Assembly: GCA_022448345.1 (NCBI GenBank)
Contig: JAKVCB010000005.1
Location: forward strand, 1 to 64,000
Source of the DNA: Pirellulales bacterium
Lineage (GTDB): Bacteria; Planctomycetota; Planctomycetia; Pirellulales; Lacipirellulaceae
DNA length: 64,000 bases
Direction: 5' to 3'
Positions 4,698-23,201 of this stretch are shown piece after piece. A model generated the notes under the pieces. The model searched no databases and was not told the origin of the DNA. It was given only the letters and a program-made list of their open reading frames with translations. A program made the translations under genes and the position numbers. How positions within the stretch are numbered: the stretch's first letter is position 1; each line of letters begins with the position of its first letter.

Positions 4698-4989
4698 TAT
4701 GCTAGCGGGGCCTTGTGGCCTGTGGGAAGCAACAAAATTTCTTCTAACTGGAATTCGCTGGAACTTGGGAACCGCTCTCAGTTTGGGTCAAGCGCCCATT
4801 TTGCGTCAGGCCGCCAGCACCTGTTCCGGTCAGGGTGGGGTCCTGGTTGACCCTGGAATTGACAGGGGAGACCAAGTTTGGACCAACGTAGCTCTGTTAT
4901 AGCGGTTTAAATGACGTTGCGTTGAAGGGTTGCAATCGGGTTGAATGAAACGGTCCCTCCACCAGCACACGCGGGAATTGCGTGAAAAG

Positions 4990-5862
4990 ATGTCTTTGCC
5001 ACTTACCGTTCTCATACCTTGTAAAAACGAAGCAAACAACATTCTTGGCTGTATTCGTTCGGTGAAGACCATCGCCGATGAGATTCTCGTCGCCGACTCG
5101 GGATCGACCGATGGCACGCTGGAGTTGGCACAGGCGTCGGGTGTTTGTCGTGTTATCGAGCGGGAATACGTTAGCTATGGAGATTTCAACAATTGGGCTA
5201 TTCCCCAAGCAACCCATCGCTGGATTTTGCTGCTTGATGCGGATGAGAGGTTGACACCTCCGCTGGCGAAAGAGATCAAGCAAGAACTAAGAGCACCCCG
5301 CCACGCTGGCTACTGGATGAATCGCCTGAACCATTTTATGGGTCACCCGATTCGCCACGGTGCGTGGTGCCCTGATCGACAATTGCGACTGTTTCAGCGT
5401 GACGCCGGGCAATTCGTCGGTCCCAGTGATCACGCAAGATACCAAGTTCTGCGCGGTACCGTTGGCAGACTCACGCAATCGTTTGACCATTACACCGTCT
5501 GGTCGTACGAACAATACTTGCCAAAACTGCAGCGATACGCGGATGTACAGTCCCGGATCTGGATGGAACAAGGCCGGTCCGCCAGCTTTTGGCAGCTGTT
5601 GCTGCGGGGACCATTACGGTTTTTACAATGCTATTTTTGGAAGCGTGGTTGCCTGGACGGATTGCCGGGACTGCAGATAGCAGTTCTCACGGCGTACCAG
5701 TCTTTTCTAAAACAGGCAAAGCTTTGGGAATTGCAGCATGCTCGTCAGCAAGTAGACGTTCACACTGAGTCGACCACAGACTTAACGAACGATTTTGGTG
5801 AGACGTCGGAGTCACCTCAGCCAGGGGTCCTTTCGGGTAGCACTCCTATCGCGGTCGACTGA
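4990..5862 (+). CDS. Glycosyltransferase family 2 (WaaE/KdtX-like)
   Basis: MSLPLTVLIPCKNEANNILGCIRSVKTIADEILVADSGSTDGTLELA and LLDADERL motifs. Confidence 0.85.
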   Translation: MSLPLTVLIPCKNEANNILGCIRSVKTIADEILVADSGSTDGTLELAQASGVCRVIEREYVSYGDFNNWAIPQATHRWILLLDADERLTPPLAKEIKQELRAPRHAGYWMNRLNHFMGHPIRHGAWCPDRQLRLFQRDAGQFVGPSDHARYQVLRGTVGRLTQSFDHYTVWSYEQYLPKLQRYADVQSRIWMEQGRSASFWQLLLRGPLRFLQCYFWKRGCLDGLPGLQIAVLTAYQSFLKQAKLWELQHARQQVDVHTESTTDLTNDFGETSESPQPGVLSGSTPIAVD

Positions 5863-6238: not shown

Positions 6239-9200
6239 TTGATGAGCGACTTGTCAGAACGACTTGCCGGACTATCTCCGGCCCAGCGCAAGCTACTGGA
6301 ACGAAGGCTTGCACAGCAGCAAGGTGACGAGCAGTCCGATCGTCCGGAACCGATCGCCATTGTCGGTTTGGCATGTCGATTTCCTGCTGCGCCAAATCTG
6401 GCCGCGTTTTGGCAATTGATTCACCATGGACTTGATGGGGTTGTCGATATACCTACGTCTCGGTGGGATCTTGAGGAGTTCTACGATCCGACTGGAGAAC
6501 AACCTGGAAAGATTTCTGTTCGCCAGGCCGCACTGCTGAATGATATTGAAGAATTCGACCCTCAGTTCTTTGGCATCACTCCCCGGGAGGCGGTGCAGAT
6601 TGATCCGCAGCAAAGAATTTTGTTGGAAGTTGCCTGGGAAGCGCTTGAGAACGCTGGGATGCCTGCGGACCAGATCGTAAAGTCGAACACGGGAGTGTTT
6701 GTTGGGATAGCGACGAATGACTATTCGAAGGTTCTGGTTCCCTACCTTCATTATTACGAACAGATCAATCCGCATTCCGGTACTGGCAATGCTCTGAGTG
6801 TCGCATCGAATCGCCTCTCATACATTTTGGATTTACATGGCCCCAGTGTATCGATTGATACAGCCTGTTCAAGTTCGTCGATGGCCATCCATTTAGCCGT
6901 TGAGAGTTTGCGCCGACGAGAGTGTGACGCTGCAATCGCTGGTGGCGTAAATGCTATTCTCACACCCGAAACAACCATTGCGTTTTCGAAGGCCCGTATG
7001 TTGTCGCCTGACGGTCGATGTCGACCTTTCGATGCCAGTGCCAATGGTTACGTTCGGGGCGAGGGTTGTGGATTGGTGGTGCTCAAGCGTTTGCAGGACG
7101 CTTTGCGTGATGATGATCATATTTGGGCAGTGTTGAGAGCAACCGCGGTCAATCAGGACGGCCGCACTTCCGGGATTAGTGCTCCCAACGGTGAGTCGCA
7201 GAAAGCTTGTATTCGGGCGGCCCTTGCGCAAGCACAACTGACACCCGATGAAATCAGTTATGTCGAGGCCCACGGGACTGGGACTCCTTTGGGTGATCCG
7301 ATTGAAATGCAGGCCCTCGGTGAAATTTTTACTGCGGACAACAAGCAAAGTCAGCCATGTTACGTTACCAGTGTGAAGGCAAATGTCGGGCATATGGAGA
7401 CGGTTTCTGGTGCCGCTGGTCTGATCAAAGTTGGTCTCATGCTGCAGCATCAAGAGATTCCTGCCCAAACCCATTTTGAGGAACTGAATCGTCATATCAA
7501 TTTGACCGGTACGAGGATCAAGGTACCCGCTGAGCAATTGCCCTGGTCCGAGTCCGGCAAGCCGAGGATTGCTGGCATCAGCTCGTTCGGCTTTGGGGGG
7601 ACGAATACGCATTTGATTGTGGAAGAAGCTCCACAACGGGTCGCCCCATCTGATCCGCCGGCACCGCGACCGGTCCACTTGCTCAAACTGTCAGGTAAGC
7701 AGGAATCGGCCATTTCCCGTCAGGCCCAACAGCTGACGGACCATCTTCAGCAACATCCTGATACCGAACTTGCCGATTTGGCTTACTCCCTCAACACCGG
7801 TCGCGTCGACTTTAATCATCGACTCACAATTGCCGCCGCAGACTTGGCACAACTGGAAAAAATCCTGCCCCAGGTTTCGGAAAAATCACGGGCGGCCAGC
7901 ATCAAACGAGGCGCCGTCCGCACCTTGGGGAGGCCCAAGGTAGCATTTTTATTTACCGGTCAGGGCTCGCAACAAGTGAACATGGGACGCCAGCTCTACG
8001 AGACCCACCCTCGCTTCCGCGCCACGCTGAATCGTTGTGATCAGGTCTTGCGGGAACATTGGGGAGAATCGCTGCTGTCGATCCTTTACCCGGAAGTCCA
8101 ACCGGAAGATGAACAAGAGTCTTTGTTGCATCAAACGCACTATACGCAACCTGCCCTGTTTGCCGTGGAGTACGCCCTGGCTGATTTGTGGAAATCGTGG
8201 GGTGTGGAGCCTGATATTGTGTTGGGCCATAGTGTAGGGGAGTATGTCGCAGCCTGTATTGCTGGCGTCATGTCGCTCGAGGACGGTTTGTGGCTCATTG
8301 CCGAGCGGGCACGGCTCATGCAGCAGATCAAACGGCACGGTAAGATGGCCGTGATTTTTGCTTCTGAAGAACAGGTGGCTGCTGAACTGGGTGCGCGAGA
8401 TGATGTCGTGGTGGCCACCATCAACGGGCCTGAAAATACCGTGATCTCGGGTGAAGAAGCGGGCGTAACCGAGATTGCTGCCCGGTTCAAATCGCGTGAT
8501 ATCGGGATCCGCGAACTGAATGTGTCGCACGCATTTCACTCTCCACTGATGGATGAAATGCTGGAGGAATTTGAGCAATCGGCTGCCCGAATTGACTTTC
8601 AGCCACCACAGGTCGATTTTGCTGCCAATCTCACCGGCCAGTTGCTACGCGAGGCACCCTCGGCAAAATACTGGCGCGACCATTTGCGTAACGCTGTCAG
8701 GTTTGCAGACGGTATGGCTCGTGTTGTTGAAGCCGAGGCAACCATCATCATTGAAATGGGTCCGACGGCAAGTTTGCTCGGTATGGGCCGACGCTGTTTT
8801 CCCAAATGGGATGCGGCCTGGGTGCCCTCGCTGCGACCAGGAAAAGAAGACTGGCAGATCATCTGTGGCAGCATTGGAGAGTGCTATTGCCGTGGTGTTC
8901 GTTTCGATTGGCGGGCCTTCGATCGACCGTGGTCGCGCCGTCGGGTGTTGGCGCCGAACTACCCATTCGAGCGGATTCGCTGTTGGCACGAGATAAGTCC
9001 CGCGCAGCGGCGTCCAATCGGCCGCAACGCCCTGCCTTCCATGGTCGCGCGATCCGACGATGGGCATCCACTACTGGGATCCCGCCTCTCGACCGTCTGG
9101 AAAAATTCCCTCTATGAAATGGCGCTCAGTTCCCACGCGCCATCCTACCTGGTGGATCACCAGGTGCAGGGGGCCCCGGTCGCGCCTGCGGCTGCTTATA

Positions 9201-12200
9201 TCGAACTGGCCCTTGCAGCAGCGGAGCAGGTTTTTGGGCCTGGTCAGCACCTTGTTGAAAACCTCAGCATCCAGCAGGCCATGTTTCTTCGGGAGGGAGA
9301 AGGACGACGTGTCCAGGTAACAGTCTCTCCCGAGTCGGGTGGTGAAGCCACCTGGGAAACTTACAGTCGCCCCAGTGGCGACCAGAATGACAACGCAGAC
9401 TGGACGTTGCATGCCACTGCCTGCCTGCGGCACGAATCGCGCATCGATCAGCAAGCATCGCCAGATCGTCAGGTCGATCTGGAGGTGATTCGTAGCCAGG
9501 CACAAGCGGTCATCGGGCACGAAGACTTCTACGCCCAAATTGCCCAACGCGGACTCGCCTACGGCCCCGCTTTCCAGGTTATTGGGGAACTCGCGCGGGG
9601 AGCGAACGACGCCACAGCCTCGATTAAGATTCCCAAGACCATTTGTCGCGAAGCTGCAGGTTATCTTCTCCATCCGGTGTTAGGAGATGCCTTGCTGCAA
9701 TCGATGGCCGGAGTTATTCCGTTGGAAAAGGATGGTTCGACCAGTCCCTCTACCTACATGCCCGTGGGGGTTGGTCGCCTTTGCATGTTTACCGCGGTAG
9801 AGGATCTGGAACAGCCGCTTTTCAGTTATGCGGTACGAACTTCCGAGGATGCTGGCCCCAGTCCCGATGTTGTGGAAGGGGATGTCTCGCTGGTCGATCA
9901 GGAGGGCAAAGTTCTTGTCGGTTTTGAGGGCGTTCGCTTGCAGAGAGTGGGCCGTGCCGTCGCGACGACAGATGATCGCCAGTGGCTCTATCAAGTTGAC
10001 TGGAAGCCGTGTCCGGCAGATCAACCTGCCACCGAAACAAGTAATCGTGAAGCGAAACAGAAAGGCCGCTGGCTGGTGTTCGCCGATACCCAGGGAATCG
10101 CACAGTCCCTGGTCGAACAGTTTGCCAGTTCGGGCCAGGATTGTGTTTTGGTCACGCCGGGGAAATCCTGCTCGTCAGAGGACGACAAACTTCATCTTGA
10201 TTCTTCCACCGAACCACTACATGTGAAGCTGGATCCCCTGAACGAAGTTCATTACCAGACACTTTTGACCCAGGTTTTCGGTGACGACCAAATTTGCCAC
10301 GGGGTGATTCACCTTTGGTCCGTCGACGCGCCCCCTCCCACCTCCGAGACCATCCACAATCCGTTGGATGCCGCGAATTGTCTGGGCTCCAAAAGCCTGT
10401 TGCAATTGCTGCGTCGGCTGGCGAGGCATCGATTTGCGAAAGTTCCCAGGTTGTATGTGGTTTCGCGCGGTGCTCAGCCAGTAAGTGGAACCACGGTTGC
10501 AATCGAACAATCGGCCTTGTGGGGTATGGGGCGTGTTGCAGCGATGGAATTTGCCGAGTTAAAACCCCGGCTGATCGATCTCGATCCCACATCCGAACCA
10601 ACCGTGGCCGCCAAGGACCTCGTTTGCGAACTCGAAATTGATGAGGATGAAACGCAAGTCGCGTACCGTGATGGGACTCGCTTTGTGGCCCGGTTGGAGA
10701 GGGTTGATGAGGAGGCGGAACAGATATCGGTAGGAGATGGCAGTTCAATCGATGTCCCTGCCGACACACCATATCAGTTAAGAATTAGTGCGGCCGGTTC
10801 GTTTGATGGATTGCGGTTTGTCCCTTGCAGCCGGAAGGTTCCCGAAACGGGTCAGGTCGAATTAGAGATTCGCGCGACGGGTCTGAATTTCAGTGACGTT
10901 CTCAAGGCACTGGGCCTCTATCCGGGAATCCGGGACGAAATTGTGCCGCTCGGCATTGAGGCGTCAGGAACGGTCGTGGCAGTTGGTGAGGGTGTCGATC
11001 GATTTAAGATTGGAGATGCGGTCTTGGGGGTCGTGCCCTACGCGTTTGCATCCCATGCCATCACGGCGGAATATGCGTTGACACCCAAGCCGGCAAATCT
11101 CGATTACAAGCAAGCTTGTACCATCCCGATACCCTTTCTCACCGCGTATTATGCACTGGTTGATTTGGCCCGAATTCAACCAGGTGAGCGACTCTTGATC
11201 CATGCCGGTGCCGGTGGTGTAGGTCTTGCAGCGATCCAGATTGCGCAACATGTCGGGGCCGAGATTTTCGCAACCGTTGGCAGCGAAGCTAAAAGAGATT
11301 ACTTGAAGTCGCTTGGGATCAAGCATCTTTACAATTCGCGGACACTCGATTTTCGCGATCAAATTCTGGCGGAGACGCATCGTGAGGGGGTCGACGTCGT
11401 ACTTAATTCACTTCCGGGGGCGGCGATTACCCAGAGTCTTTCCGTTTTGCGTGCGTATGGCCGTTTTCTGGAAATTGGAAAGACCGACATTTACCAGGAT
11501 GCCAAGATCGGGTTACTTCCATTCCAGGACAACCTCTCCTATTTCGCGATCGATTTAGATCGAATGCTGCGGCAAAAGCCAACTGCGATCCGCAAGTTGT
11601 TCGCCGAAGTTATGCAGCATTTTGACAGTGGGGCTTACAAACCGCCGGTATTCACTCAATTCGAGGCTGATCAAACCATCGGAGCGTTCCGCTACATGTC
11701 GCAGCGGAAGAATACTGGAAAGATTGTTGTTTCATTCGAACAAAGCCTCGATCAAATTCAGCAGGAAGCACAGGCGGACAATTCCTCTCAGCAAAATGTG
11801 AGCCAGGACCTGGTCAGCCCCGACGGCACCTATCTGGTGACGGGGGGGCTTGGTGCGCTGGGCATGCAGGTCACCGAATGGTTGATCCAACAAGGTGCCC
11901 GCTCAATTGCCCTGCTGTCTCGCAGAACACCATCCGATGAGACAGTAGAAAAGCTTGCCCAGTTCCAGCGGCGTGGCGTGCAGGTCTTCGCCTGCCAGGC
12001 CGATGTAACCGATCCTGTTTCCTTGCGATCTGCAGTTTCCAGAATACTTGAATCGCGCCCTCCGTTTCGGGGTGTGATTCACGCAGCGGGAGTGCTGGCC
12101 GATGGTGCGATCGCCGACATGACCCTCGAACAGTTCGAGCGTGCGGCGAGTCCCAAGATTCAAGGGGCCTGGAACTTGCACCAGGTCCTCAATGACCAGC

Positions 12201-13777
12201 CACTCGACTTTTTTGTTTTGTTTTCTTCAGTGGCAAGCATTTTGGGATCTCCCGGGCAGGCGAATTATGCCGCCGGTAACGCGATGCTGGACGGACTCGT
12301 CCATTACCGGCGGGCCCACGGGCAACCGGCAACCACGATTAACTGGGGACCTTGGGCAGGTTCAGGCATGGCAGTGGACGAAGGCCGTGACGAGGCAATC
12401 GAATCCCGCGGGATGGCCTCCATGCCTGCCACGCAAGGTCTTTACTGGCTGGAGAGGTTGCTCCGCGAAAATGTCGACCAGGTGACGGTGATGGATGTCG
12501 ATTGGGAGGCTTTCACAGCTTCCCTGGGGAAGCGTCGGCCCACGCTACTGCAAGATCTGTGCGTGGTGGATGACCAGTCGGACCAGGTAGGGACTCAGGT
12601 CGATCAGGCATTTCGCGATCAGTTCTTTCAGGCAGATTTGCCAACTCGTCAACGGTTGGTCCAAACGTATATCCAGGCGGAGTTAGCCCGCATTATGGGA
12701 ATGGAAGCAAGTGCCCTGGAGGTCGATGAGCCACTAAGCTCGTTTGGCATAGATTCGTTGCTGGCTTTAGAACTCAAAAACAACCTGGAAACTCGTTTGT
12801 CATTCACCCTCCCGATGGCGGCTCTTCTTGAAGGACCGAGTATCAAATCGCTGGCTAGCGAGACAGTGCGATTGATCGCCGACCCTGATTTAGAGGTCGA
12901 TGTTGCCGGCGGCAGTGAGGATGGGGCAGCCGCACAATGGGAGCCGTTAGTAGCGATGCGGACTGCTGGTTCGGGGCCACCCTTGTTCCTATTGCCATCG
13001 CTCGGTGGCGATATCCGTTGCTACGACGAGCTCGTGCAAAGAGTCAGCGGTGATCGACCCGTGTTCGCGATTCGACCGCGCGGCCTGGACGATGCTGTAT
13101 CGCCTCACCAGTCGATGCGCGAAATGGCCCAAGACTATGCCGCTGCGGTACACAAGCAGTGTCCCGAAGGGCCCTACCATCTGGCTGGTTGGTCCACGGC
13201 TGGTATTTACGCAATTGCCATGGCACACGCGCTGGTTGAAATGGGTGTTGAGGTGGCATCGGTAGCTTTGTTCGATACGCCACTACCGACGGTCTTCAGT
13301 AAGATTAAGGTCGATGATGATGCCCAGTTCCTGTGCAATATTATCAACGTTCTCAACCGATGGCGCCGTTCAGACGTACATATCGAATACGATCAGCTCG
13401 CCGCGCTTGAGCCGGAACAGCGGTTTAAAATGGCTATTGAGGAGGCTCGGAAGCAGGGTGCAGTTCCCGAAGCTGCACCCGAGGAATATATCAGGCGGAT
13501 CGTTCAAGTGGGTGAAGCGAATGTGCGAGCGTTGCAATCGTACGCACCAACTTCCTTAGATGGCAAGGCGCGGGTCTATTTGTTCGTTCCTCACACCAAA
13601 GGAGAACTCTCGACGGTTGCAGGTCAGGAAGTCAACGAAGACGGCGATTTGGGATGGGGTATCGAAGTTGGTCAAGAGCTTGAAGTCCAGGAAGTTCCAG
13701 GAGACCACTTTTCCATGATGTTTGGGGAGGGGGCCCAGCGTCTGGCAAGCCATCTGGACGAGTTTACCCGAAAATAG
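6239..13777 (+). CDS. Highly reducing type I polyketide synthase, single module: KS-AT-DH-(structural KR)-ER-KR-ACP-TE
   Basis: 2512 aa: KS DTACSSS and HGTGTPLGDPIE; AT GHSVGEYVAA with HAFHS (malonyl-type); DH HQVQGAPVAP (HxxxGxxxxP); ER HAGAGGVGLAAIQIA; KR TGGLGALGMQV; ACP FGIDSLLALEL; TE AGWSTAGIYA. Confidence 0.95.
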   Translation: MMSDLSERLAGLSPAQRKLLERRLAQQQGDEQSDRPEPIAIVGLACRFPAAPNLAAFWQLIHHGLDGVVDIPTSRWDLEEFYDPTGEQPGKISVRQAALLNDIEEFDPQFFGITPREAVQIDPQQRILLEVAWEALENAGMPADQIVKSNTGVFVGIATNDYSKVLVPYLHYYEQINPHSGTGNALSVASNRLSYILDLHGPSVSIDTACSSSSMAIHLAVESLRRRECDAAIAGGVNAILTPETTIAFSKARMLSPDGRCRPFDASANGYVRGEGCGLVVLKRLQDALRDDDHIWAVLRATAVNQDGRTSGISAPNGESQKACIRAALAQAQLTPDEISYVEAHGTGTPLGDPIEMQALGEIFTADNKQSQPCYVTSVKANVGHMETVSGAAGLIKVGLMLQHQEIPAQTHFEELNRHINLTGTRIKVPAEQLPWSESGKPRIAGISSFGFGGTNTHLIVEEAPQRVAPSDPPAPRPVHLLKLSGKQESAISRQAQQLTDHLQQHPDTELADLAYSLNTGRVDFNHRLTIAAADLAQLEKILPQVSEKSRAASIKRGAVRTLGRPKVAFLFTGQGSQQVNMGRQLYETHPRFRATLNRCDQVLREHWGESLLSILYPEVQPEDEQESLLHQTHYTQPALFAVEYALADLWKSWGVEPDIVLGHSVGEYVAACIAGVMSLEDGLWLIAERARLMQQIKRHGKMAVIFASEEQVAAELGARDDVVVATINGPENTVISGEEAGVTEIAARFKSRDIGIRELNVSHAFHSPLMDEMLEEFEQSAARIDFQPPQVDFAANLTGQLLREAPSAKYWRDHLRNAVRFADGMARVVEAEATIIIEMGPTASLLGMGRRCFPKWDAAWVPSLRPGKEDWQIICGSIGECYCRGVRFDWRAFDRPWSRRRVLAPNYPFERIRCWHEISPAQRRPIGRNALPSMVARSDDGHPLLGSRLSTVWKNSLYEMALSSHAPSYLVDHQVQGAPVAPAAAYIELALAAAEQVFGPGQHLVENLSIQQAMFLREGEGRRVQVTVSPESGGEATWETYSRPSGDQNDNADWTLHATACLRHESRIDQQASPDRQVDLEVIRSQAQAVIGHEDFYAQIAQRGLAYGPAFQVIGELARGANDATASIKIPKTICREAAGYLLHPVLGDALLQSMAGVIPLEKDGSTSPSTYMPVGVGRLCMFTAVEDLEQPLFSYAVRTSEDAGPSPDVVEGDVSLVDQEGKVLVGFEGVRLQRVGRAVATTDDRQWLYQVDWKPCPADQPATETSNREAKQKGRWLVFADTQGIAQSLVEQFASSGQDCVLVTPGKSCSSEDDKLHLDSSTEPLHVKLDPLNEVHYQTLLTQVFGDDQICHGVIHLWSVDAPPPTSETIHNPLDAANCLGSKSLLQLLRRLARHRFAKVPRLYVVSRGAQPVSGTTVAIEQSALWGMGRVAAMEFAELKPRLIDLDPTSEPTVAAKDLVCELEIDEDETQVAYRDGTRFVARLERVDEEAEQISVGDGSSIDVPADTPYQLRISAAGSFDGLRFVPCSRKVPETGQVELEIRATGLNFSDVLKALGLYPGIRDEIVPLGIEASGTVVAVGEGVDRFKIGDAVLGVVPYAFASHAITAEYALTPKPANLDYKQACTIPIPFLTAYYALVDLARIQPGERLLIHAGAGGVGLAAIQIAQHVGAEIFATVGSEAKRDYLKSLGIKHLYNSRTLDFRDQILAETHREGVDVVLNSLPGAAITQSLSVLRAYGRFLEIGKTDIYQDAKIGLLPFQDNLSYFAIDLDRMLRQKPTAIRKLFAEVMQHFDSGAYKPPVFTQFEADQTIGAFRYMSQRKNTGKIVVSFEQSLDQIQQEAQADNSSQQNVSQDLVSPDGTYLVTGGLGALGMQVTEWLIQQGARSIALLSRRTPSDETVEKLAQFQRRGVQVFACQADVTDPVSLRSAVSRILESRPPFRGVIHAAGVLADGAIADMTLEQFERAASPKIQGAWNLHQVLNDQPLDFFVLFSSVASILGSPGQANYAAGNAMLDGLVHYRRAHGQPATTINWGPWAGSGMAVDEGRDEAIESRGMASMPATQGLYWLERLLRENVDQVTVMDVDWEAFTASLGKRRPTLLQDLCVVDDQSDQVGTQVDQAFRDQFFQADLPTRQRLVQTYIQAELARIMGMEASALEVDEPLSSFGIDSLLALELKNNLETRLSFTLPMAALLEGPSIKSLASETVRLIADPDLEVDVAGGSEDGAAAQWEPLVAMRTAGSGPPLFLLPSLGGDIRCYDELVQRVSGDRPVFAIRPRGLDDAVSPHQSMREMAQDYAAAVHKQCPEGPYHLAGWSTAGIYAIAMAHALVEMGVEVASVALFDTPLPTVFSKIKVDDDAQFLCNIINVLNRWRRSDVHIEYDQLAALEPEQRFKMAIEEARKQGAVPEAAPEEYIRRIVQVGEANVRALQSYAPTSLDGKARVYLFVPHTKGELSTVAGQEVNEDGDLGWGIEVGQELEVQEVPGDHFSMMFGEGAQRLASHLDEFTRK

Positions 13778-13945: not shown

Positions 13946-15634
13946 ATGATCTTTCGCTACGTGTACCTGGGTTACAAGCGAATTCAGTTGAGAAGGTTTC
14001 TGCGGGGCGCCCGTGATGCGCGGCAGACGCAACACGCATCGCTACTGAGAAAAATCCATCGGAATGCATCCAGTGCCTACGGGCGCGACCACGGATTTAG
14101 CGAGATTCGCACCGCGGCCGATTTCCGGGCCCGCCAGCCCATCATGAGCTTTGAGGATGTGGAGCCGTATGTAGAACGCGTGATGCGCGGTGATGTGACG
14201 GCGATGTTTTCGCCAGAGACCCGGGTGCGTATGTTCGCCATGTCTTCAGGGACGACAGGTCGCCCGAAGCACTTGCCTCTGACCGACGAACTGTTTCGCG
14301 AGTACCGGAGCGGCTGGCAAATTTGGGGCGCTGGTGTTTATGGTGACCACATCGACCTGATGTCGAAGAAAACACTTCAACTCACAAGCGATTGGAAACA
14401 ATCGTATACCCCCGATGGTACGCCATGTGGCCAAATAAGTGGTTTGGCGGCTGAGACGCGGCCCTTGGTAGCCCGCCCCATTTTTCTACTGCCATCGTGC
14501 GTGAACCAAGTTCACAATTCCGAAGCCAAGCATTACCTGACGTTGCGATTGGCGTTGGTAAAACGGCTTTTGGGCATGATCATTACAGCGAACCCCAGCA
14601 CGCTTATCGAATTAGCGAAGCGGGCCGACACGCATAAAGAGATGCTTATTCGTGATATTCACGATGGTACGTGCTCGGTTGATTTGCCCATACCTGATTC
14701 GGTGCGACAACGATTGGCACGTCGTCTGGGGAGGGGCCATCCTCGTCGGGCACGGGAACTGGAGAAGATTGTGGGTGACGAGGGATCTTTGCTGCCAAAG
14801 CGCGTTTGGCCGCATTTGTCCGTGCTGGCGGTTTGGACTGGCGGATCTGTTGGAGTTTACTTGCCGCAAGTTCGCGAACTCTACGGAGATGTTGCAATTC
14901 GTGATCATGGCTTGTCTGCCAGTGAAGGGCGGATCACGATCCCGCTGACCGACGGATCCTCCGCGGGCATCCTCGATTATCGCAATCACTACTTCGAGTT
15001 CATTCCAGTCGACCAGCATGGTACAGCGAATCCCACAATCGTCGAGGGTCACGAGTTGGTGGAGGGTTGCGACTACTACATCTTGCTCACCACTTCCGGC
15101 GGACTTTACCGGTACGACATTCAAGATGTCGTGCGGTGTGTTGGCTTTGAAGGGGAGGCGCCGCTGGTTGAATTTCTCAATAAGGGGAAGCACTTTTCGA
15201 ATATTACGGGTGAGAAACTAAGCGAGTATCAAGCGATTGATGCTGTGCGGCGGGCTTTTGCCGAGCTTCAGTTGCCGGTGACCACCTTTACCCTGGCCCC
15301 TTCGATGGACGAAACTCAGCACAAACCGCGTTACCTGTTGCTGCTCGAACCGGAAGCCCACTTTGGCCGTGCAGCTGAACTTGCTCGCCACGTGGAGATG
15401 AACCTGGCTAAAAGCAACCTCGAGTATGGCGAGAAAAGTTCCTCTGGACGATTGTTGCCAGTTGCAGTTCATGAGGTTTTACCTGGCACCTGGGATGCGT
15501 TGCGGGCTGATCGGACCCGTGCCAGGGGAAATTTCGAAGAATATAAACACCCATGTCTCGTAGGCCGGCTTGATTTTATCGATGAGCTTTCGGACCATTT
15601 TGGCCAGTCACCGACAGTGATTGCCCGCGCATAG
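13946..15634 (+). CDS. GH3 superfamily acyl-adenylate / acyl-acid amido synthetase
   Basis: 562 aa; MSSGTTGRPKHLPLT adenylation motif, HGLSASEGRITIPL, YRYDIQDVVRCVGF; GH3-type organisation. Confidence 0.85.
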   Translation: MIFRYVYLGYKRIQLRRFLRGARDARQTQHASLLRKIHRNASSAYGRDHGFSEIRTAADFRARQPIMSFEDVEPYVERVMRGDVTAMFSPETRVRMFAMSSGTTGRPKHLPLTDELFREYRSGWQIWGAGVYGDHIDLMSKKTLQLTSDWKQSYTPDGTPCGQISGLAAETRPLVARPIFLLPSCVNQVHNSEAKHYLTLRLALVKRLLGMIITANPSTLIELAKRADTHKEMLIRDIHDGTCSVDLPIPDSVRQRLARRLGRGHPRRARELEKIVGDEGSLLPKRVWPHLSVLAVWTGGSVGVYLPQVRELYGDVAIRDHGLSASEGRITIPLTDGSSAGILDYRNHYFEFIPVDQHGTANPTIVEGHELVEGCDYYILLTTSGGLYRYDIQDVVRCVGFEGEAPLVEFLNKGKHFSNITGEKLSEYQAIDAVRRAFAELQLPVTTFTLAPSMDETQHKPRYLLLLEPEAHFGRAAELARHVEMNLAKSNLEYGEKSSSGRLLPVAVHEVLPGTWDALRADRTRARGNFEEYKHPCLVGRLDFIDELSDHFGQSPTVIARA

Positions 15635-15676
15635 CGGCCCAATTACTGATGTTGCTGGCTTCACCACACTTTTACC

Positions 15677-16738
15677 ATGTCGCAAGGAGCCCGGGTCGTG
15701 TCTCAAGAAAAAATCCTTGTCACAGGTGCAACCGGACACGTGGGGAGCCATTTTGTGCCACTGGCGGTGAAGGCCGGCTATACGGTTCGTGCCCTGGTTC
15801 GAAACACATCGAACACGGGTCTCCTGGAACACTTGCCAGTGGAGTTGGCTGAAGGAGATCTTGCGAAACCAGAAACACTTGCACCAGCCTTGGAAGACAT
15901 CGATATGGTGATTCATTCGGGAGCCCATGTTGGAGATTGGGGGCCGGCTGACACATACCGCCAGGCCAACGTGCTTTCTCTGGAGCACATGCTGACGACC
16001 GCTGAGCGGATGGGGCAGCTGAAGCGGTGGATTCAAATCAGTTCGCTGGGTGTCTATCCTGCCCGGCATCATTACGGAACTGACGAGACGATAACTCCCA
16101 ATCTTGCTGGCCTGGATGGTTACACCCAGACCAAGGCCGAAGCGGAGGTACTACTCAAGAGGCACCGCGACGAGTTCAATTTTCCAATCGTTATTCTGCG
16201 TCCCGGATTTATTTACGGCGCCGGTGACCGTCATGCGCTTCCGCGAATTGTTGCGAAACTTCAAGCCGGAAAAATGAAGTTTATTGGTCGCGGTGATCAG
16301 CTTCTCAATAACACTTATGTTGGCAACCTGGTCGATGCTATTTTTCTGGCCATGGAGCACCCTGCGGCACTAGGAGAGACCTTTAACATTCGCGACGAGA
16401 GATTGGTCACCCGGCTCGAATTTATCAATACCATCGCAGACTACCTGGGCAAGCCTCACCCAGGCCATTTTCCCGAAGCTTTGGCGCGGTTGCTCGTACG
16501 ACCCATTGAACGCGTGGCCAAGATGCGTGGGGCAACCAGTCCCCCGTTGCTGACCAGCGGACAAATCAAGTTTATGACGCTGAACCTCGATTACTCGATC
16601 GACAAGGCAAAGCGTTTGCTCGACTATCAGCCACGGGTTGATTTTCAAGAAGGTATCCGCCAGGCGCTAGATCACCTTGTCGGCGATGCCCCACCCTCGA
16701 CGACTTCCAGTGATCACACCGAATCGGTCTCTGCTTGA
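15677..16738 (+). CDS. NAD(P)-dependent extended SDR (epimerase/dehydratase, 3-beta-HSD-like)
   Basis: VTGATGHVGSHF (TGxxGxxG) and YTQTKAEAE (YxxxK); possible GTG start at 15698. Confidence 0.85.
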   Translation: MSQGARVVSQEKILVTGATGHVGSHFVPLAVKAGYTVRALVRNTSNTGLLEHLPVELAEGDLAKPETLAPALEDIDMVIHSGAHVGDWGPADTYRQANVLSLEHMLTTAERMGQLKRWIQISSLGVYPARHHYGTDETITPNLAGLDGYTQTKAEAEVLLKRHRDEFNFPIVILRPGFIYGAGDRHALPRIVAKLQAGKMKFIGRGDQLLNNTYVGNLVDAIFLAMEHPAALGETFNIRDERLVTRLEFINTIADYLGKPHPGHFPEALARLLVRPIERVAKMRGATSPPLLTSGQIKFMTLNLDYSIDKAKRLLDYQPRVDFQEGIRQALDHLVGDAPPSTTSSDHTESVSA

Positions 16739-16773
16739 ACCGTTGCCGACAAACTCTCTTTGCCTGAACTTCC

Positions 16774-17946
16774 ATGCGTATTCGCAAATTGACTGCCTGG
16801 CATGTGTGTTTACCGTTGAAACGACCTTTTTCACATGCCTCTCATGTCCGCCAAGCGAGTGAGAATGTCCTGGTCGAGTGTGTATTGCACAGCGGAACGA
16901 CGGGGTGGGGTGAAGGGGTGCCGCGGGAGTATGTCACTGGCGAAACGCCTCGCACGTGCTTCGACCAACTCGCGGAGACTTGCTTAGAAGAACAACTTTC
17001 CGGAGAGTTCGATTCATGGAAGGACGTCATTACGATCTGTGAACGGTTTCAACCCGCTCAAACCGACAAGAACCCACGTGACTCTGGTAGCAACGCGTTG
17101 AAATGTGCCGTCGAATTGAGCATTTTGGATGCGTTCGCACAAGAAATTGGTGTGCCAGTGAGTCAACTGGTCAATCATTTTCCACCTGCCCAGTCGCTCC
17201 GTGCTAAAATAAACGAAGTTCGCTACAGCACGGTGATTGGTTTTGGCCGGCGACTGCGGAACAAGGCCCTCAAAATGCGTTTGTACGGTTTTCGCCACTG
17301 CAAGGTGAAGGTGGGGGCAGGCGATGACGACGTTTCGCGATTGCGGACCATTCGCCGTTGGATTGGCCCTGATGTCGATCTGCGAATCGACGCAAACGAG
17401 GCCTGGTTGCCCGATGAATTACCAGGTCGGCTCGAACCGCTTGAGCAATTTAAGATTCGGTCGGTCGAACAGCCATGCCCCCACGGTATGCTAACCGAGT
17501 TGGCTTCCAGAAAAAGCCAGTTGGCTCTGCCAATCATGCTTGATGAGTCGGTCACCAGCCTGGGAGATGGAAAACGGGCCATCGAGTTGGGAGCGTGTGA
17601 TTCGTTCAACATTCGACTTTCGAAATGTGGAGGTTATCTTGCCAGTTTGCGACTGGCCGCCCTAGCCCAACATGCTGGATTGGGTTATCAGTTAGGTTGC
17701 CATCCGGGGGAATCAGGAATTCTTTCGGCGGCCGGACGACATTGGGCTTCCTCGGTCGGTGGAATCCAGTATGTCGAAGGTTCGTATGATCGACACCTGT
17801 TTCGCCAATTGCTAACTCATGAAGATCTCACATTTGGTTATGGTGGTCGTGCCCCAGCACTCACAGGGCCCGGATTGGGGGTGACGGTCAATCCGCAAGT
17901 GTTGCGAGACGTGGCTATCCGTGAGCAAACGTTCCCGGTTTCCTGA
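16774..17946 (+). CDS. Enolase superfamily, MLE/mandelate racemase-like enzyme (OSBS / N-acylamino acid racemase / dipeptide epimerase relatives)
   Basis: HCKVKVG (KxK), RIDANEAW, SVEQPCP, MLDESV, RLSKCGG: the catalytic Lys, metal ligands and second Lys are present in order. Confidence 0.85.
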   Translation: MRIRKLTAWHVCLPLKRPFSHASHVRQASENVLVECVLHSGTTGWGEGVPREYVTGETPRTCFDQLAETCLEEQLSGEFDSWKDVITICERFQPAQTDKNPRDSGSNALKCAVELSILDAFAQEIGVPVSQLVNHFPPAQSLRAKINEVRYSTVIGFGRRLRNKALKMRLYGFRHCKVKVGAGDDDVSRLRTIRRWIGPDVDLRIDANEAWLPDELPGRLEPLEQFKIRSVEQPCPHGMLTELASRKSQLALPIMLDESVTSLGDGKRAIELGACDSFNIRLSKCGGYLASLRLAALAQHAGLGYQLGCHPGESGILSAAGRHWASSVGGIQYVEGSYDRHLFRQLLTHEDLTFGYGGRAPALTGPGLGVTVNPQVLRDVAIREQTFPVS

Positions 17947-18046: not shown

Positions 18047-18889
18047 GTGAGCGATTCCTTTCCTACCATTGAAACCTACCAGACTCGTGATGGGGATCTG
18101 CTGGCCGTACGGGTCTGGCGGTCTGCATCGGCACCGCGGGCCCGGGTCGTATTTCTCCACGGGATCGTCAGCCATGGAGGTTGGTATGCCTCGAGCTCTG
18201 CTCATCTGGCGGAAAATGGCTACGAGGTTCATTTTCTGGAGCGCCGCGGGTCAGGACTCAACTCCAAGGATCGTGGAGACGTGGCCAGTTGGAAAACCTG
18301 GCTTGAAGACGTAGAAGTCTATCTGGAACATTTGGGGAACGACTGTCCACGGGTGCTCTGTGGCATTAGTTGGGGGGGGAAACTTGCCGCAGCTGTTGCT
18401 TTCCACCGGCCTGAGTTGATGGATGGTCTCGGTTTGCTTTGTCCGGGTCTCTTTGCCCGGCAGCAGCCTGGACTTTTAAAGCAGATTATCCTATCGGTCT
18501 TACCCAGGGGCTGGCTGGCCCGGCGCCATGTCACGATTCCGCTGAACGATCCGGCTTTGTTCACAAATTCCCCGCGCCACCAGATCTACGTACGGGACGA
18601 CCCACTTGCGTTGCGTACCGTGACCTTGCGGTTTGCGCGCGGTGACCTCTTGCTGACACGTTTTGTGTGTGAGGCCACGCTCTCCCTGAAGATGCCTACC
18701 TTACTAGTGCTGGCAGGCCAAGACAAAATCGTGGTGGGTGATCCAACGCGTGACTATCTGGAAAAAACCGTGATCCCCCAGAAAACGCTTCACGAATATC
18801 CGACAGCGGCTCACACGCTTGAGTTCGAGTCCCAGCCAGACCAGTATTTCAACGATCTAAGCCAGTGGTTGGATGGTATTGCGAACTAA
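18047..18889 (+). CDS. Alpha/beta hydrolase (serine aminopeptidase S33 / monoacylglycerol lipase-like)
   Basis: VFLHGIVSHGGWY, GISWGGKLAAAVA nucleophile elbow, LVLAGQDKIV; GTG start. Confidence 0.8.
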   Translation: MSDSFPTIETYQTRDGDLLAVRVWRSASAPRARVVFLHGIVSHGGWYASSSAHLAENGYEVHFLERRGSGLNSKDRGDVASWKTWLEDVEVYLEHLGNDCPRVLCGISWGGKLAAAVAFHRPELMDGLGLLCPGLFARQQPGLLKQIILSVLPRGWLARRHVTIPLNDPALFTNSPRHQIYVRDDPLALRTVTLRFARGDLLLTRFVCEATLSLKMPTLLVLAGQDKIVVGDPTRDYLEKTVIPQKTLHEYPTAAHTLEFESQPDQYFNDLSQWLDGIAN

Positions 18890-18925: not shown

Positions 18926-19702
18926 TTAAACCTCCAGTGAACGAAAAACAGCAGCCCGTTTGACACCTCTTGTAGCAACAGCACCCACATAATGGTCACA
19001 GGGCACAAATGTCTGTAGCCACATCTGGGTTGTTGAGGGGCTGGCATCTTGGAGTGCATGTTGTGGCAAACTCAACCACTCAGGCGTGTCACTTTTGACC
19101 GGCACACGGAATTGGCTAAGCGGAAATTGCAACCCCTTACCAATGGCCTTAACGACCGCCTCTTTTCGTGTCCAGCAGCGGAAAAATGCTTCCACCCGTT
19201 CCTTCCCCTGACAAGCAAGTACGTCGGCTGCTTCGTCAGGATGGAAGAATCGCCTGGTAATTCCTTCTGCATGTCGCACGGGCCGCAGGTGCTCGACATC
19301 GATTCCTACTTCACAGTCGTAAGTGACTGCCACCAAGGCAAGTTCTCCTGAATGGGCCAGGTTGAAAAACAATCCATCGCTGCAAATGGAGCTGTCCAGC
19401 GCCGGCTTGCCAAGCTCATCGTAGACAAAGCGAATTGCAGCGGGATCGATATCCAGATAGGTCGAGAGAATCAGCCGTAAATTTGCCCGCGCCGTGATGA
19501 AATGTTGCCGCACCCGGTCCAAGCGAAATCTGGCAGCCCTCGTTTGCTCATCAGCGGAAAGGATTTGCTGATCAGTCTCCAGCAAAGGGCCTGAAATGGG
19601 AACGGCCCATACATGCAACTGATCCCTTTGTAGCTTGGTCGAACTGGCAAGTCGCGGCCACTGTGGTTGTGGAGTGATTGGCATGGTTTTAGTTGCCGGC
19701 AA
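18926..19702 (-). CDS. 4'-phosphopantetheinyl transferase, Sfp-type
   Basis: VGIDVEHLRPV and FFRCWTRKEAVVKAIGKGL, the two signature motifs. Confidence 0.92.
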   Translation of the reverse strand: MPATKTMPITPQPQWPRLASSTKLQRDQLHVWAVPISGPLLETDQQILSADEQTRAARFRLDRVRQHFITARANLRLILSTYLDIDPAAIRFVYDELGKPALDSSICSDGLFFNLAHSGELALVAVTYDCEVGIDVEHLRPVRHAEGITRRFFHPDEAADVLACQGKERVEAFFRCWTRKEAVVKAIGKGLQFPLSQFRVPVKSDTPEWLSLPQHALQDASPSTTQMWLQTFVPCDHYVGAVATRGVKRAAVFRSLEV

Positions 19703-20453
19703 ACGGACGAAGGTGATCGATAATGGTATGCATAGCCGACTTTGGTGTGTTGCTGCTGGAGTCGGTTAGAAACAGATGCCCACCGGGCAGTAGCTGAAGC
19801 GAAAAACAGCCCGTGATGTGTTGCTGCCATGCTGCCAGTTCAGGGTCCATTATCGCCTGGTCCTCGCGACCCCCCAAGGCTAACAGGTCAACTTCCAGGG
19901 GGGCATCTTGCTGGTACTGGTAGGTTTCGAGAACCTGAAAATCGGCCCGCAAAGTTGGTGTGACCGAAGCCACCAGCTCGCGGTTGTCGCGAACCTTCTC
20001 GGGAATGCCTCCGTAGCGATCATGGAGAGCTGTCAGGAATTGCAGGTCGGGTAAATGGTGAAGGGGTTCAAGATTTGGCACTAAATGGGGTGCTCGGGCA
20101 GCGGCAACAATAAATAAACAAGGCAGCGGAAGGTTTTGGCGTCGGAATTCCCGCACCAACTCAAAAAACACCAGCGCACCCATGCTATGCCCCAGGAAGG
20201 CGTAGGTTCGAGGTAGATGGGGTCTGATGGCGTCGGCAAGATCCGTGACCAGCGGGCCCAATTCCGTGTAAGCCGGTTCGGAAAAGCGGGCCTCGCGGCC
20301 AGGAAGACCAATGGGCACCAGGCGAAGCCAGGAGGGAACCAAGGACCGTAAACGATGAAATGCGGATGTGCCGCCTCCGGCGTGGGGCAGGCAAAACAAA
20401 ACTAGTTCCGTTTCAGGCAGATTCTCGTCCGGTATGAATCCGTTTGGCGTCAT
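19689..20453 (-). CDS. Type II thioesterase (GrsT/SrfAD-like)
   Basis: LFCLPHAGGGTSAFHRL, PIGLPGREARF, FLGHSMGALVFFEL. Confidence 0.9.
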   Translation of the reverse strand: MTPNGFIPDENLPETELVLFCLPHAGGGTSAFHRLRSLVPSWLRLVPIGLPGREARFSEPAYTELGPLVTDLADAIRPHLPRTYAFLGHSMGALVFFELVREFRRQNLPLPCLFIVAAARAPHLVPNLEPLHHLPDLQFLTALHDRYGGIPEKVRDNRELVASVTPTLRADFQVLETYQYQQDAPLEVDLLALGGREDQAIMDPELAAWQQHITGCFSLQLLPGGHLFLTDSSSNTPKSAMHTIIDHLRPFAGN

Positions 20454-20879
20454 GGGTGATAGTTGTAAGTTACGTGTGAATAGGGTTTTAGGAGATTGTT
20501 TGGGAGTATTGAGGGGGGGGGTCAGGTAGCGGTGCCTTTTGGGCCGTGGTGTGGAGAATAGGCTGAAAAACAGGTCGGGGCTTTCGCAGGCTACTTAGAA
20601 TCCCTAGAATAGCTCACTTTCAAAGTGCTGTTCAGGGCTGATTTTCGAAGAGTGAGGTGGCTCTGTTGCGGGTGTGAAGGATGATTAGCATTCCGCGAGT
20701 TCCTTCATTCACGATCCCGCCTTTGCCCGTTTTGCTAACGCATTGGACCCGCCAGCTTAGCTATTGATCAGCACCAAACGTTCGTTGTCTCCTGCCGGTA
20801 ACGTGCGGGTTAATATCATAAACTTAGGGCTCTCGAAAGTCCCCAATTGATTATGCACTGCGATTTGCAAGTTAATACG

Positions 20880-23201
20880 ATGGTGGATTTATTGGTCCAC
20901 CAGGCTGTCGAACGACAAGACGCAACCGCTTGTGTGTTTTTGGATGATCAAGGCCACGAGGTTGCCGTCACTTACACCCAGTTGGATCGGCGGGCCCGCG
21001 CGATCGCTGCCGAGTTGCAGCAGCGGGCCGGTCGTGGGGATCGGGTGCTATTGGTTTTTCCGGCTGGCATTGAATTTATATCCGCTTTTTTTGGTTGTTT
21101 GTATGCCGGTGTAGTGGCGGTACCTGCAACCTATCCGAAGCGGCGTCGGCCTCTGCCGAGAATGAATCGCATAGCGGCTGATTGCGGAGCACATCTTGTG
21201 CTCACCACAACACAAACGCTCGAGACGATTGACATTCAACAAGTGGATCCGGAGGTAGGACACCTCGATTGGATTGCGACCGATACGATTGACTCGGAGA
21301 TGGACTGTCATTGGAACTCGCCCGATGTCGAGGAAACCGATCTTGCATTTTTGCAATACACATCAGGTTCGACTAGCGATCCCAAGGGTGTGATGGTTTC
21401 GCATGGGAACCTCTTGAGCAACCTTTCGGTGATACGTCAGGCGTTTGGAATTGGCGAGGTGGAATCTGATCACCTATCTCAAACGGGCGTCTTTTGGTTG
21501 CCAGCTTATCACGACATGGGGCTGATCGGTGGAATTTTGACCCCGCTGTATGTCGGTGGCAGAAGTGTCTTGATGTCACCTACCTCTTTCTTGCAGCGAC
21601 CAATTCGCTGGCTTCGGGCTATCGACCAGTACCAGGCTACCATCAGCGGAGCACCCAATTTTGCCTACCAACTTTGTGTTTCACGCACGACCGCCGAAGA
21701 GCGTGCAAGTCTTGATCTCAGTCTCTGGCGACTTGCATTTTGTGGTGCTGAGCCAATCCGTGCTGAAACAATCATGCAATTTACGGAGACTTTTGAGCCA
21801 CATGGGTTCCAGCCCGAATCGCTTTACCCTTGCTATGGGTTGGCTGAGTCGACGCTGCTTGCCACCGGGCCAAAGTTCGATGAAAAGCCGACCGTTGCGA
21901 AGTTCAATCGGCAAGCGATTGCAGTCCATCGCGTTGAATTGGCAAATGGCGAGCCAGCTGAACAGGTCCAGGAGTTAGTCGGTTGTGGTCCAGCCGTGTT
22001 GGACCATGAACTGGTTGTCGTGGATACCGAGAGTGGGGTTCCCGTCAGAGAATCTCAGATCGGTGAAATCTTACTACAAGGGCCCTCGATCGCCCAGGGA
22101 TATTGGAATCGTCCAGAATTAACGAGAGAAGTGTTTGGCCGGAAGGTAAGCGGTCGGGATGGCGATTTCCTGCAAACGGGTGATTTAGGTTTTGTTCGCA
22201 ATGACGAACTCTTTGTGACTGGCCGAGCCAAGGATGTGATTATTATCCGTGGTCGCAACCATTATCCCCAGGATATTGAGCAAACGGTCGAGGCGGTTCA
22301 TCCGGCGATCCTACTTGGCGCCGCGTTTGGTGTTGCGGTCGAAGGCGACGAGCGACTTGTCGTTGTACATCAGGTCGATCGGCAGGCACGAGGTAAAGAT
22401 TGGAAACAGGTCATTTCTCAAATCCGATCGGCGATTGTGACCCATCACGAGTTGGATCCCTACGCCATTATCCTCATTCGACAGATCTCGTTGCCAATTA
22501 CATCCAGCGGAAAAGTGCAGCGCAATCTATGTCGTGAGCAGTACCTGGGTGGCCAACTCAAAATTGTTCAACAATGGACCAACCGAGCCCGAAAAAAATC
22601 GGGCGAGGACCAGGGAGTGGAGACGTCAGTCAATGAACAGGCCAATGGTCGCGTTCACGTGAATCTGAATGGTACAGGGATCACATGGTCAAACAATGAT
22701 GCGGCCAAAGAACACCAATCATCTGAAAAAGCAGGGTCAGCAACTCCTGGCGAACCGTCAAAGCAACACGATTTCACGGGTGTTCCTCTCGACCGGGCAG
22801 CCGAATACACCGAAACATGGTTACTCGAATGGTTAGTCGAGCGGGTTGGGCTCGATCCGACAGATGTCGATCGTAACCGACCGTTTGCGGAATTTGGCGT
22901 TGATTCGCTGGCAGCCGTTGAACTTAGCGAGGAACTTGAAAACCAGTTTGGTGTACCCGTTACGCCCGTGGTTGCGTGGAACTACCCCACCCCCGCAGCC
23001 CTCGCCCGTTATTTGGCTGAGCAGGCAACCGGGGCGACACCCACAGCCAACCAGCAGGCAAGTAGCTCCGACAACTCGAGCAGCTCGGGAGCCTCCGAGC
23101 AAAAATCATCCGACGACGATACGTTGAGCCAACTACTTGCGGAAGTCGAGAGTCTCTCTGAAGAAGAAGCTGCCCAACTCCTGGCTAATGGAGATCGCTG
23201 A
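20880..23201 (+). CDS. Fatty acyl-AMP ligase (FAAL) fused to C-terminal acyl carrier protein
   Basis: LQYTSGSTSDPKGVMVSHGNL, PTSFLQRPIRWLRAIDQYQATISGAPNFAYQLC (FAAL-like), VKDVIIIRGRNHYPQDIE; C-terminal FGVDSLAAVELSEELE ACP motif. Start set at MVDLLVHQ; ORF track begins at 20847. Confidence 0.9.
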   Translation: MVDLLVHQAVERQDATACVFLDDQGHEVAVTYTQLDRRARAIAAELQQRAGRGDRVLLVFPAGIEFISAFFGCLYAGVVAVPATYPKRRRPLPRMNRIAADCGAHLVLTTTQTLETIDIQQVDPEVGHLDWIATDTIDSEMDCHWNSPDVEETDLAFLQYTSGSTSDPKGVMVSHGNLLSNLSVIRQAFGIGEVESDHLSQTGVFWLPAYHDMGLIGGILTPLYVGGRSVLMSPTSFLQRPIRWLRAIDQYQATISGAPNFAYQLCVSRTTAEERASLDLSLWRLAFCGAEPIRAETIMQFTETFEPHGFQPESLYPCYGLAESTLLATGPKFDEKPTVAKFNRQAIAVHRVELANGEPAEQVQELVGCGPAVLDHELVVVDTESGVPVRESQIGEILLQGPSIAQGYWNRPELTREVFGRKVSGRDGDFLQTGDLGFVRNDELFVTGRAKDVIIIRGRNHYPQDIEQTVEAVHPAILLGAAFGVAVEGDERLVVVHQVDRQARGKDWKQVISQIRSAIVTHHELDPYAIILIRQISLPITSSGKVQRNLCREQYLGGQLKIVQQWTNRARKKSGEDQGVETSVNEQANGRVHVNLNGTGITWSNNDAAKEHQSSEKAGSATPGEPSKQHDFTGVPLDRAAEYTETWLLEWLVERVGLDPTDVDRNRPFAEFGVDSLAAVELSEELENQFGVPVTPVVAWNYPTPAALARYLAEQATGATPTANQQASSSDNSSSSGASEQKSSDDDTLSQLLAEVESLSEEEAAQLLANGDR

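Follow-up and report, generated by a model that had tools for sequence, protein, structure and literature searches.

A GH3-enolase gene pairing of planctomycetes with a possible role in amino-acid lipid biosynthesis

We studied a window of 64,000 nucleotides, i.e., the whole stretch of DNA analysed here (Pirellulales bacterium, assembly GCA_022448345.1, positions 1 to 64,000 of contig JAKVCB010000005.1). In this window, genes for a type I polyketide synthase (PKS), a GH3-family protein, a short-chain dehydrogenase/reductase (SDR), an enolase-superfamily protein (in the following, the enolase) and an alpha/beta-hydrolase form a run. The pairing of GH3 with this enolase is not accidental, and a functional link of GH3, enolase and PKS is supported. 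With slightly less than even confidence, we read the window as the core of an uncharacterised planctomycete pathway for amino-acid lipids (or short lipopeptides), in which GH3 would form an amide and the enolase would act as an epimerase.

All five genes are on the + strand, with successive gaps of 168, 42, 35 and 100 bp. The initial annotation had placed GH3 next to the enolase. This holds insofar as both belong to one same-strand run, but they are not directly adjacent, as the SDR gene (15677-16738) intervenes. The genes and the relevant sites of the enolase are as follows.

6239-13777, + strand: type I PKS, KS-AT-DH-ER-KR-ACP-TE, 2512 aa (domain searches, active-site motifs, same PKS before GH3 in relatives)
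13946-15634, + strand: GH3-family acyl acid amido synthetase of a non-OlsH clade, 562 aa (Pfam domains, motifs, tree)
15677-16738, + strand: extended SDR, an OleD/HpnA/3beta-HSD-like oxidoreductase, 353 aa (domain/family models; position between GH3 and enolase conserved)
16774-17946, + strand: MLE-subgroup enolase-superfamily protein, proposed N-acyl-amino-acid epimerase, 390 aa (profile, predicted fold, alignment)
16834-16851, + strand: enolase 20s loop HASHVR with His21 and Arg26 (alignment of family and known structures)
16921-16944, + strand: enolase 50s loop PREYVTGE with Arg51 (alignment of family and known structures)
17302-17310, + strand: enolase KxK (K177, K179), general acid/base on the second barrel strand (alignment)
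17614-17634, + strand: enolase RLSKCGG with K284, the second acid/base (alignment)
18047-18889, + strand: alpha/beta-hydrolase (Hydrolase_4, monoglyceride-lipase-like), 280 aa (domain search; the enolase's commonest neighbour)

The enolase is carried by 9/60 close relatives and, at E < 1e-60, by 28/392 genomes of the phylum (7%; the window's genome is counted in both cases). A GH3 of the window's type is present in all other enolase-positive phylum genomes (27/27), adjacent or not. The phylum-wide co-occurrence yields Fisher p-values between 6e-21 and 6e-31, depending on the GH3 threshold, which ignore shared ancestry. The exception in this respect is a comparison confined to family f21, in which the two genes mostly lie apart: both are present in 20 members and neither in 5, while 2 have GH3 alone and none has the enolase alone (p = 2.6e-4). 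A profile search of the 31 GH3-positive genomes that are enolase-negative at E < 1e-60 found an enolase relative in 22, several of which bear the signature of the enolase family (HAS..R, PRxYVTGE, [HQ][VP]GE[ST]) or a close variant.

Gene order points in the same direction. The order GH3-SDR-enolase-hydrolase recurs in most loci of the enolase-positive close relatives, with or without the PKS. At least nine deep-branching genomes have the enolase gene directly beside GH3 (G062, G063, G138, G155, G243, G078, G193, G216, G249), and the deepest lineages show a compact hydrolase-enolase-GH3-hydrolase operon (ABH-ENO-GH3-ABH). Repeated co-linearity in differing gene orders is independent support for the pairing. 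The culturable carriers found are Rhodopirellula rubra, R. sallentina, R. europaea, Aporhodopirellula aestuarii and Neorhodopirellula pilleata. As a side observation, a MinD/ParA-like ATPase is encoded immediately upstream of the hydrolase-enolase-GH3 operon in deep-branching planctomycetes (L062, L063, L064, L120).

The annotated GH3 reading frame with its adenylation motif (13946-15634) is confirmed. It is intact and matches the N-terminal, middle and C-terminal Pfam domains (228, 76 and 58 bits, cut-off 23.6 each; E 2e-67, 3e-21 and 3e-15), and its nucleotide-binding motifs are preserved (SSGTTGRPK at aa 100, SASEG, i.e., S-x-S-E-G, at aa 324 and YRYDIQD at aa 388). It is the sole GH3 detected in the host genome (4.48 Mb, 439 contigs, 83% complete). 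The plant proteins JAR1, GH3.8 and GH3.12 share the fold family over nearly the full length as well as the nucleotide motifs, with low similarity (about 75-103 bits).

A closer reference is OlsH of Singulisphaera acidiphila, a planctomycete GH3 that joins free fatty acid and ornithine to N-acyl-ornithine in vitro with ATP and Mg2+ and whose deletion abolishes ornithine lipids in vivo; an alpha/beta-hydrolase partner, OlsI, then adds the second acyl group (PMC12493201). The window GH3 does not reach the OlsH equivalog NCBIfam NF052613 (93 bits vs. cut-off 620). In a tree of 52 sequences, OlsH-like and enolase-linked GH3 proteins split with 100/100 support, where the OlsH-like rows are planctomycete proteins that score 294-427 bits with the OlsH model and also stay below its cut-off. 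Judged by these sequence comparisons, the window GH3 is not OlsH and belongs to a sister clade of the OlsH-like GH3. Since OlsH shows a planctomycete GH3 coupling free fatty acids to ornithine, amide formation is the most likely activity by analogy, possibly with another amino acid or acid than in OlsH, and we consider it probable that the window GH3 forms an amide. The proposed chemistry would be the same in both systems (free acid, amino acid and ATP to N-acyl amino acid), and both combine a planctomycete GH3 with an alpha/beta-hydrolase. In contrast, the window GH3 is of a separate clade and tied to enolase, SDR, PKS and ATP-grasp genes; enolases, racemases and polyketides do not feature in the OlsHI paper (PMC12493201). 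The role of GH3 in planctomycete membrane lipids was shown only lately (OlsH, 2025), and here we find a further GH3 clade of the phylum, distinct from the first, most of whose genes occur together with a single enolase-superfamily family.

All enolase motifs named in the initial annotation could be located in an intact reading frame (KVK 177-179, DAN 206, EQP 232, DES 257, RLSKCGG 281-287; MR_MLE_C match with E 4e-46). For GH3 and enolase alike, such matches lie well outside what chance would give. The MLE-subgroup residues K177, K179, D206, E232, D257 and K284 are invariant in 33 homologues, and the KxK motif, the Asp/Glu/Asp metal ligands and the strand-6 Lys align with those of the structures 2P88, 1JPM, 3Q45, 3RIT and 3JVA. 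A search of structures with the family profile ranks the N-succinyl-Arg/Lys racemase 2P88 from Bacillus cereus first (210 bits), followed by the dipeptide epimerases 3JVA, 3Q45, 1JPM and 3RIT (202-168 bits). Further down are muconate enzymes (most at about 130-145 bits, one at 165), N-acylamino acid racemases/OSBS from Amycolatopsis and Deinococcus (about 100-112 bits) and galactonate dehydratase as the best-named sugar-acid dehydratase (99 bits). A fold search with the AlphaFold model (mean pLDDT 93.6) also finds 2P88 as best match, only slightly ahead of N-acylamino acid racemases and dipeptide epimerases. The assignment as 'OSBS/N-acylamino acid racemase-type' is thus correct at the level of the subgroup, but the closest enzymes by profile and fold are the N-succinyl-Arg/Lys racemase and the dipeptide epimerases. 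Clustering with sugar-acid enzymes, which had been named as a possible refutation, is not seen: sugar-acid dehydratases are far more distant by profile and fold, and their NCBIfam equivalogs score about 50 bits or less (cut-offs 311-750).

The enolase shares the catalytic Lys pair and the metal ligands with 2P88 and the N-acylamino acid racemases, and with 2P88 also the aligned strand-8 Glu (E335). It differs from this group by its low identity (about 26%), by His21, Arg26, Arg51 and Arg322, by an extra residue in the strand-7 motif (HPGES/QVGET) and by its location among lipid biosynthesis genes. Furthermore, the capping-loop residues H21, R26, R51 and Y53 are unlike those of N-succinyl/N-acyl amino acid racemases. 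Given that H21, R26 and R51 sit in the capping loops and differ from the comparators, the sequence predicts a distinct substrate. The VTGE of the 50s loop is common to the dipeptide epimerases. Their strand-8 Asp-x-Asp, which binds the free amino group, is absent in its literal form from the enolase, which reads Y-V-E-G-S-Y-D; E335 aligns with the first Asp, with a two-residue alignment offset at this position.

The PKS is complete and of the reducing type. The active-site motifs of KS, AT, ER, KR, ACP and TE are intact, the HxxxGxxxxP of DH is readable in the translation and the AT motif is of malonyl type (HAFH). Its start codon is TTG, with an ATG immediately after it at 6242. The same PKS is found directly before GH3 in several relatives, and a stand-alone ketosynthase pair precedes GH3 in two deeper lineages (directly in L060, with one hydrolase gene between in L058). 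This supports that GH3 takes its acid from a dedicated ketosynthase system, and the PKS is the likely source of the acyl chain. The suggestion that GH3 acts on a PKS-derived acid is thereby backed by the gene link of GH3 to PKS and ketosynthases in relatives, but the PKS is not obligatory: since many genomes hold GH3 and enolase without it, it is not a required partner. One locus shows a type II version in one run (L060:252-12259, G114:C99), i.e., FabG, ACP, FabA-like, two ketosynthases, GH3, methyltransferase, DUF362 ferredoxin, DUF1571, enolase, hydrolase and flavodoxin.

In other Pirellulales loci, the cassette is flanked by genes for an ATP-grasp ligase, a ketopantoate-reductase-family protein (KPR) and a membrane desaturase/hydroxylase. 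The window's genome carries this trio on another contig (L124:10725-14442, G000:C24). The ATP-grasp gene is present in 7/9 enolase-positive and 0/51 enolase-negative relatives (a hand-calculated hypergeometric probability of about 1e-7). One metagenome-assembled genome (L137) has PKS, GH3, SDR, enolase, hydrolase, ATP-grasp and KPR in one run. Aporhodopirellula aestuarii (L139), Rhodopirellula sallentina (L147) and R. rubra (L155) each combine ATP-grasp, GH3, an MMPL exporter, KPR, enolase, hydrolase, a second GH3 and PKS in one locus. The trio's desaturase has the L-arginine gamma-hydroxylase GntB as its top match, at 105 bits short of the cut-off of 380. Taken with the Arg/Lys racemase match of the enolase, this points weakly to a basic amino acid. 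A PDB search with the ATP-grasp protein returned nothing useful.

Given these observations, the idea of the initial annotation that GH3 amidates and the enolase epimerises is supported by context. In the joint model, the substrates throughout, the sequence of the steps and the choice of epimerisation over other MLE-subgroup reactions are inferred. The fatty acid would be activated by a fatty acyl-AMP ligase fused to a carrier protein (FAAL-ACP). The single-module PKS would then extend and fully reduce the chain, and its terminal thioesterase would set the long-chain acid free. In a second step, GH3 would adenylate this acid and transfer it to an amino acid, such that an N-acyl amino acid is formed without CoA or carrier protein. 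The enolase would bind the carboxylate on Mg2+, with one Lys (K179 or K284) taking the alpha proton and the proton being returned on the opposite face, i.e., a two-lysine 1,1-proton transfer that epimerises the N-acyl amino acid or an extended derivative. Finally, the SDR and the hydrolase/acyltransferase-like protein, along with the ATP-grasp ligase, KPR and desaturase/hydroxylase encoded elsewhere in the genome, may tailor the product, and the MMPL protein of related clusters may export it in some hosts.

Whether the enolase epimerises an N-acyl amino acid or a derivative of it is about evenly balanced in our assessment. A wider proposal is possible, on balance doubtful: the family would have the epimerisation of long-chain N-acyl amino acids as its dedicated, so far unrecognised function, and planctomycetes would make D-amino-acid lipids by GH3 plus enolase, needing neither an epimerisation domain of a nonribosomal peptide synthetase (NRPS) nor a free D-amino acid. 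If the enolase does epimerise N-acyl amino acids, this would explain an origin of D-amino-acid lipids without NRPS, and we would know of no earlier enolase-superfamily member with a dedicated role in lipid biosynthesis. The two enzyme families, like the general chemistry of each, are already known; no description of the GH3-enolase association or of the cassette was found in the open-access literature searched (subscription literature was outside the search).

Several observations weigh against epimerisation within the joint model, besides the disregard of shared ancestry in the phylum-wide statistics. Identity to any characterised relative is just 22-27%, and no NCBIfam equivalog model reaches its cut-off with the enolase. 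H21, R26, R51 and R322 are invariant within the family (33 members) and different in all five racemases/epimerases compared. MLE-subgroup enzymes with identical catalytic residues also dehydrate or cycloisomerise. Finally, hydrolase neighbours are more common (35/80 enolase loci) than GH3 neighbours (17/80), so that the enolase may have its place close to the hydrolase step.

The strongest rival is a lyase or dehydratase role, which we consider unlikely. Here, GH3 would still make the amide, and the enolase would abstract the alpha proton of a carboxylate substrate (an N-acyl beta-hydroxy amino acid or 3-hydroxy acid) and eliminate its beta-hydroxyl, with SDR, hydrolase and desaturase being part of the same unsaturation or cyclisation sequence. 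OSBS and cis-3-hydroxyproline dehydratase, members of the same superfamily, do dehydrate, and the family distantly matches the cis-3-hydroxy-L-proline dehydratase model (54-94 bits vs. cut-off 500). The GntB match of the desaturase leaves room for a hydroxylated amino acid part, and the family-specific His/Arg residues fit a non-standard reaction or substrate. However, both lysines of the 1,1-proton transfer are invariant, and the nearest structures are racemases and epimerases with no dehydratases among them.

Rather improbable is a route to a membrane lipid akin to ornithine lipids, in which GH3 is an OlsH homologue, the hydrolase an O-acyltransferase of OlsI type and the enolase an accessory that sets the head-group stereochemistry or recycles wrong isomers. 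OlsH and OlsI are just such a GH3 and alpha/beta-hydrolase pair of planctomycetes (PMC12493201), and both families adjoin the enolase here and in the compact operons of the deepest lineages. On the other hand, OlsHI lacks dedicated PKS, FAAL, ATP-grasp and MMPL genes, the hydrolase scores 23 bits with the OlsI model NF052614 (cut-off 385) and GH3 falls outside the OlsH-like clade. We rejected membership in OlsH/OlsI as model cut-offs and tree both fail.

Still less probable is that GH3 forms an ester or thioester, or only activates its substrate for cyclisation, such that the enolase would act on a carbocyclic or alpha-hydroxy acid made with KPR. KPR, which is encoded beside the enolase in clusters of Pirellulaceae, would be a possible source of a 2-hydroxy acid, and some clusters carry two GH3 genes. 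Against this, all characterised plant and bacterial GH3 proteins known to us form amides, and we know of none with a hydroxyl acceptor.

A menaquinone OSBS (MenC) or murein-recycling Ala-Glu epimerase that stands beside GH3 by chance is very improbable: it would fit the subgroup and a weak MenH match of the hydrolase (24.5 bits vs. cut-off 208.55), but the respective models score far below cut-off with the enolase (OSBS 86.7 vs. 200.65 bits; Ala-Glu epimerase 91 vs. 500), and a core quinone or cell-wall function is unlikely given an enolase in just 28/392 phylum genomes, always with GH3. The menaquinone role (MenC plus MenH-like hydrolase) was accordingly rejected on model scores and patchy distribution, the murein dipeptide epimerase on the missing strand-8 Asp-x-Asp.

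Two further candidates were rejected. A hopanoid link was considered based on a weak HpnA match of the SDR and an HpnH-like radical SAM gene, which lies divergently near the enolase in eight loci (L164, L168, L170, L185, L187-L189, L199; Planctomycetaceae or Schlesneria where named). Since HpnH is not beside the enolase in other loci, this neighbourhood is probably lineage-specific synteny. The stieleriacine/NasY N-acyl tyrosine pathway of Stieleria employs N-acyl amino acid synthases, ThiF and a nitroreductase, and its description does not name GH3 or an enolase (PMC12479983); as NasY is used there and not GH3, the stieleriacine cluster was dismissed.

Downstream of the run, three further genes complete the local inventory.

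18926-19702, - strand: Sfp/HetI-type phosphopantetheinyl transferase (domain/family models)
19689-20453, - strand: type II thioesterase (domain search)
20847-23201, + strand: FAAL fused to carrier protein (domain/family models)

It is plausible that these round out a fatty acyl supply line: the FAAL-ACP probably loads the PKS with a fatty acid, and the phosphopantetheinyl transferase probably serves the carrier proteins of both PKS and FAAL. A FAAL homologue ends right beside a PKS homologue in L156. The FAAL-loaded reducing PKS, and the MMPL exporter of related clusters, resemble mycobacterial FAAL-PKS-MMPL systems (Pks2/Mas type). Mycobacterial FAAL-PKS products pass to PapA acyltransferases, whereas the product of the window PKS, with its malonyl-type AT motif, is apparently released as free acid for GH3.

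Upstream of the PKS, a family 2 glycosyltransferase is encoded at 4945-5862, and a homologue with 61% identity also precedes the PKS in G012 (L011); the gene may belong to the cluster. Within the SDR between GH3 and enolase, both TGATGHVG and YxxxK are intact. Promoter and terminator scans gave fewer sites than in shuffled sequence.

Relatives of the enolase occur at about 400 places in GTDB species genomes. The enolase is also seen in records labelled Candidatus Kuenenia, Singulisphaera or Bacteroidales (L173, L178, L182, L198), where some labels look like mis-binned or mis-named metagenome-assembled genomes. The window's genome itself encodes eight MR_MLE_C enolase-superfamily members on eight contigs, including the window enolase.

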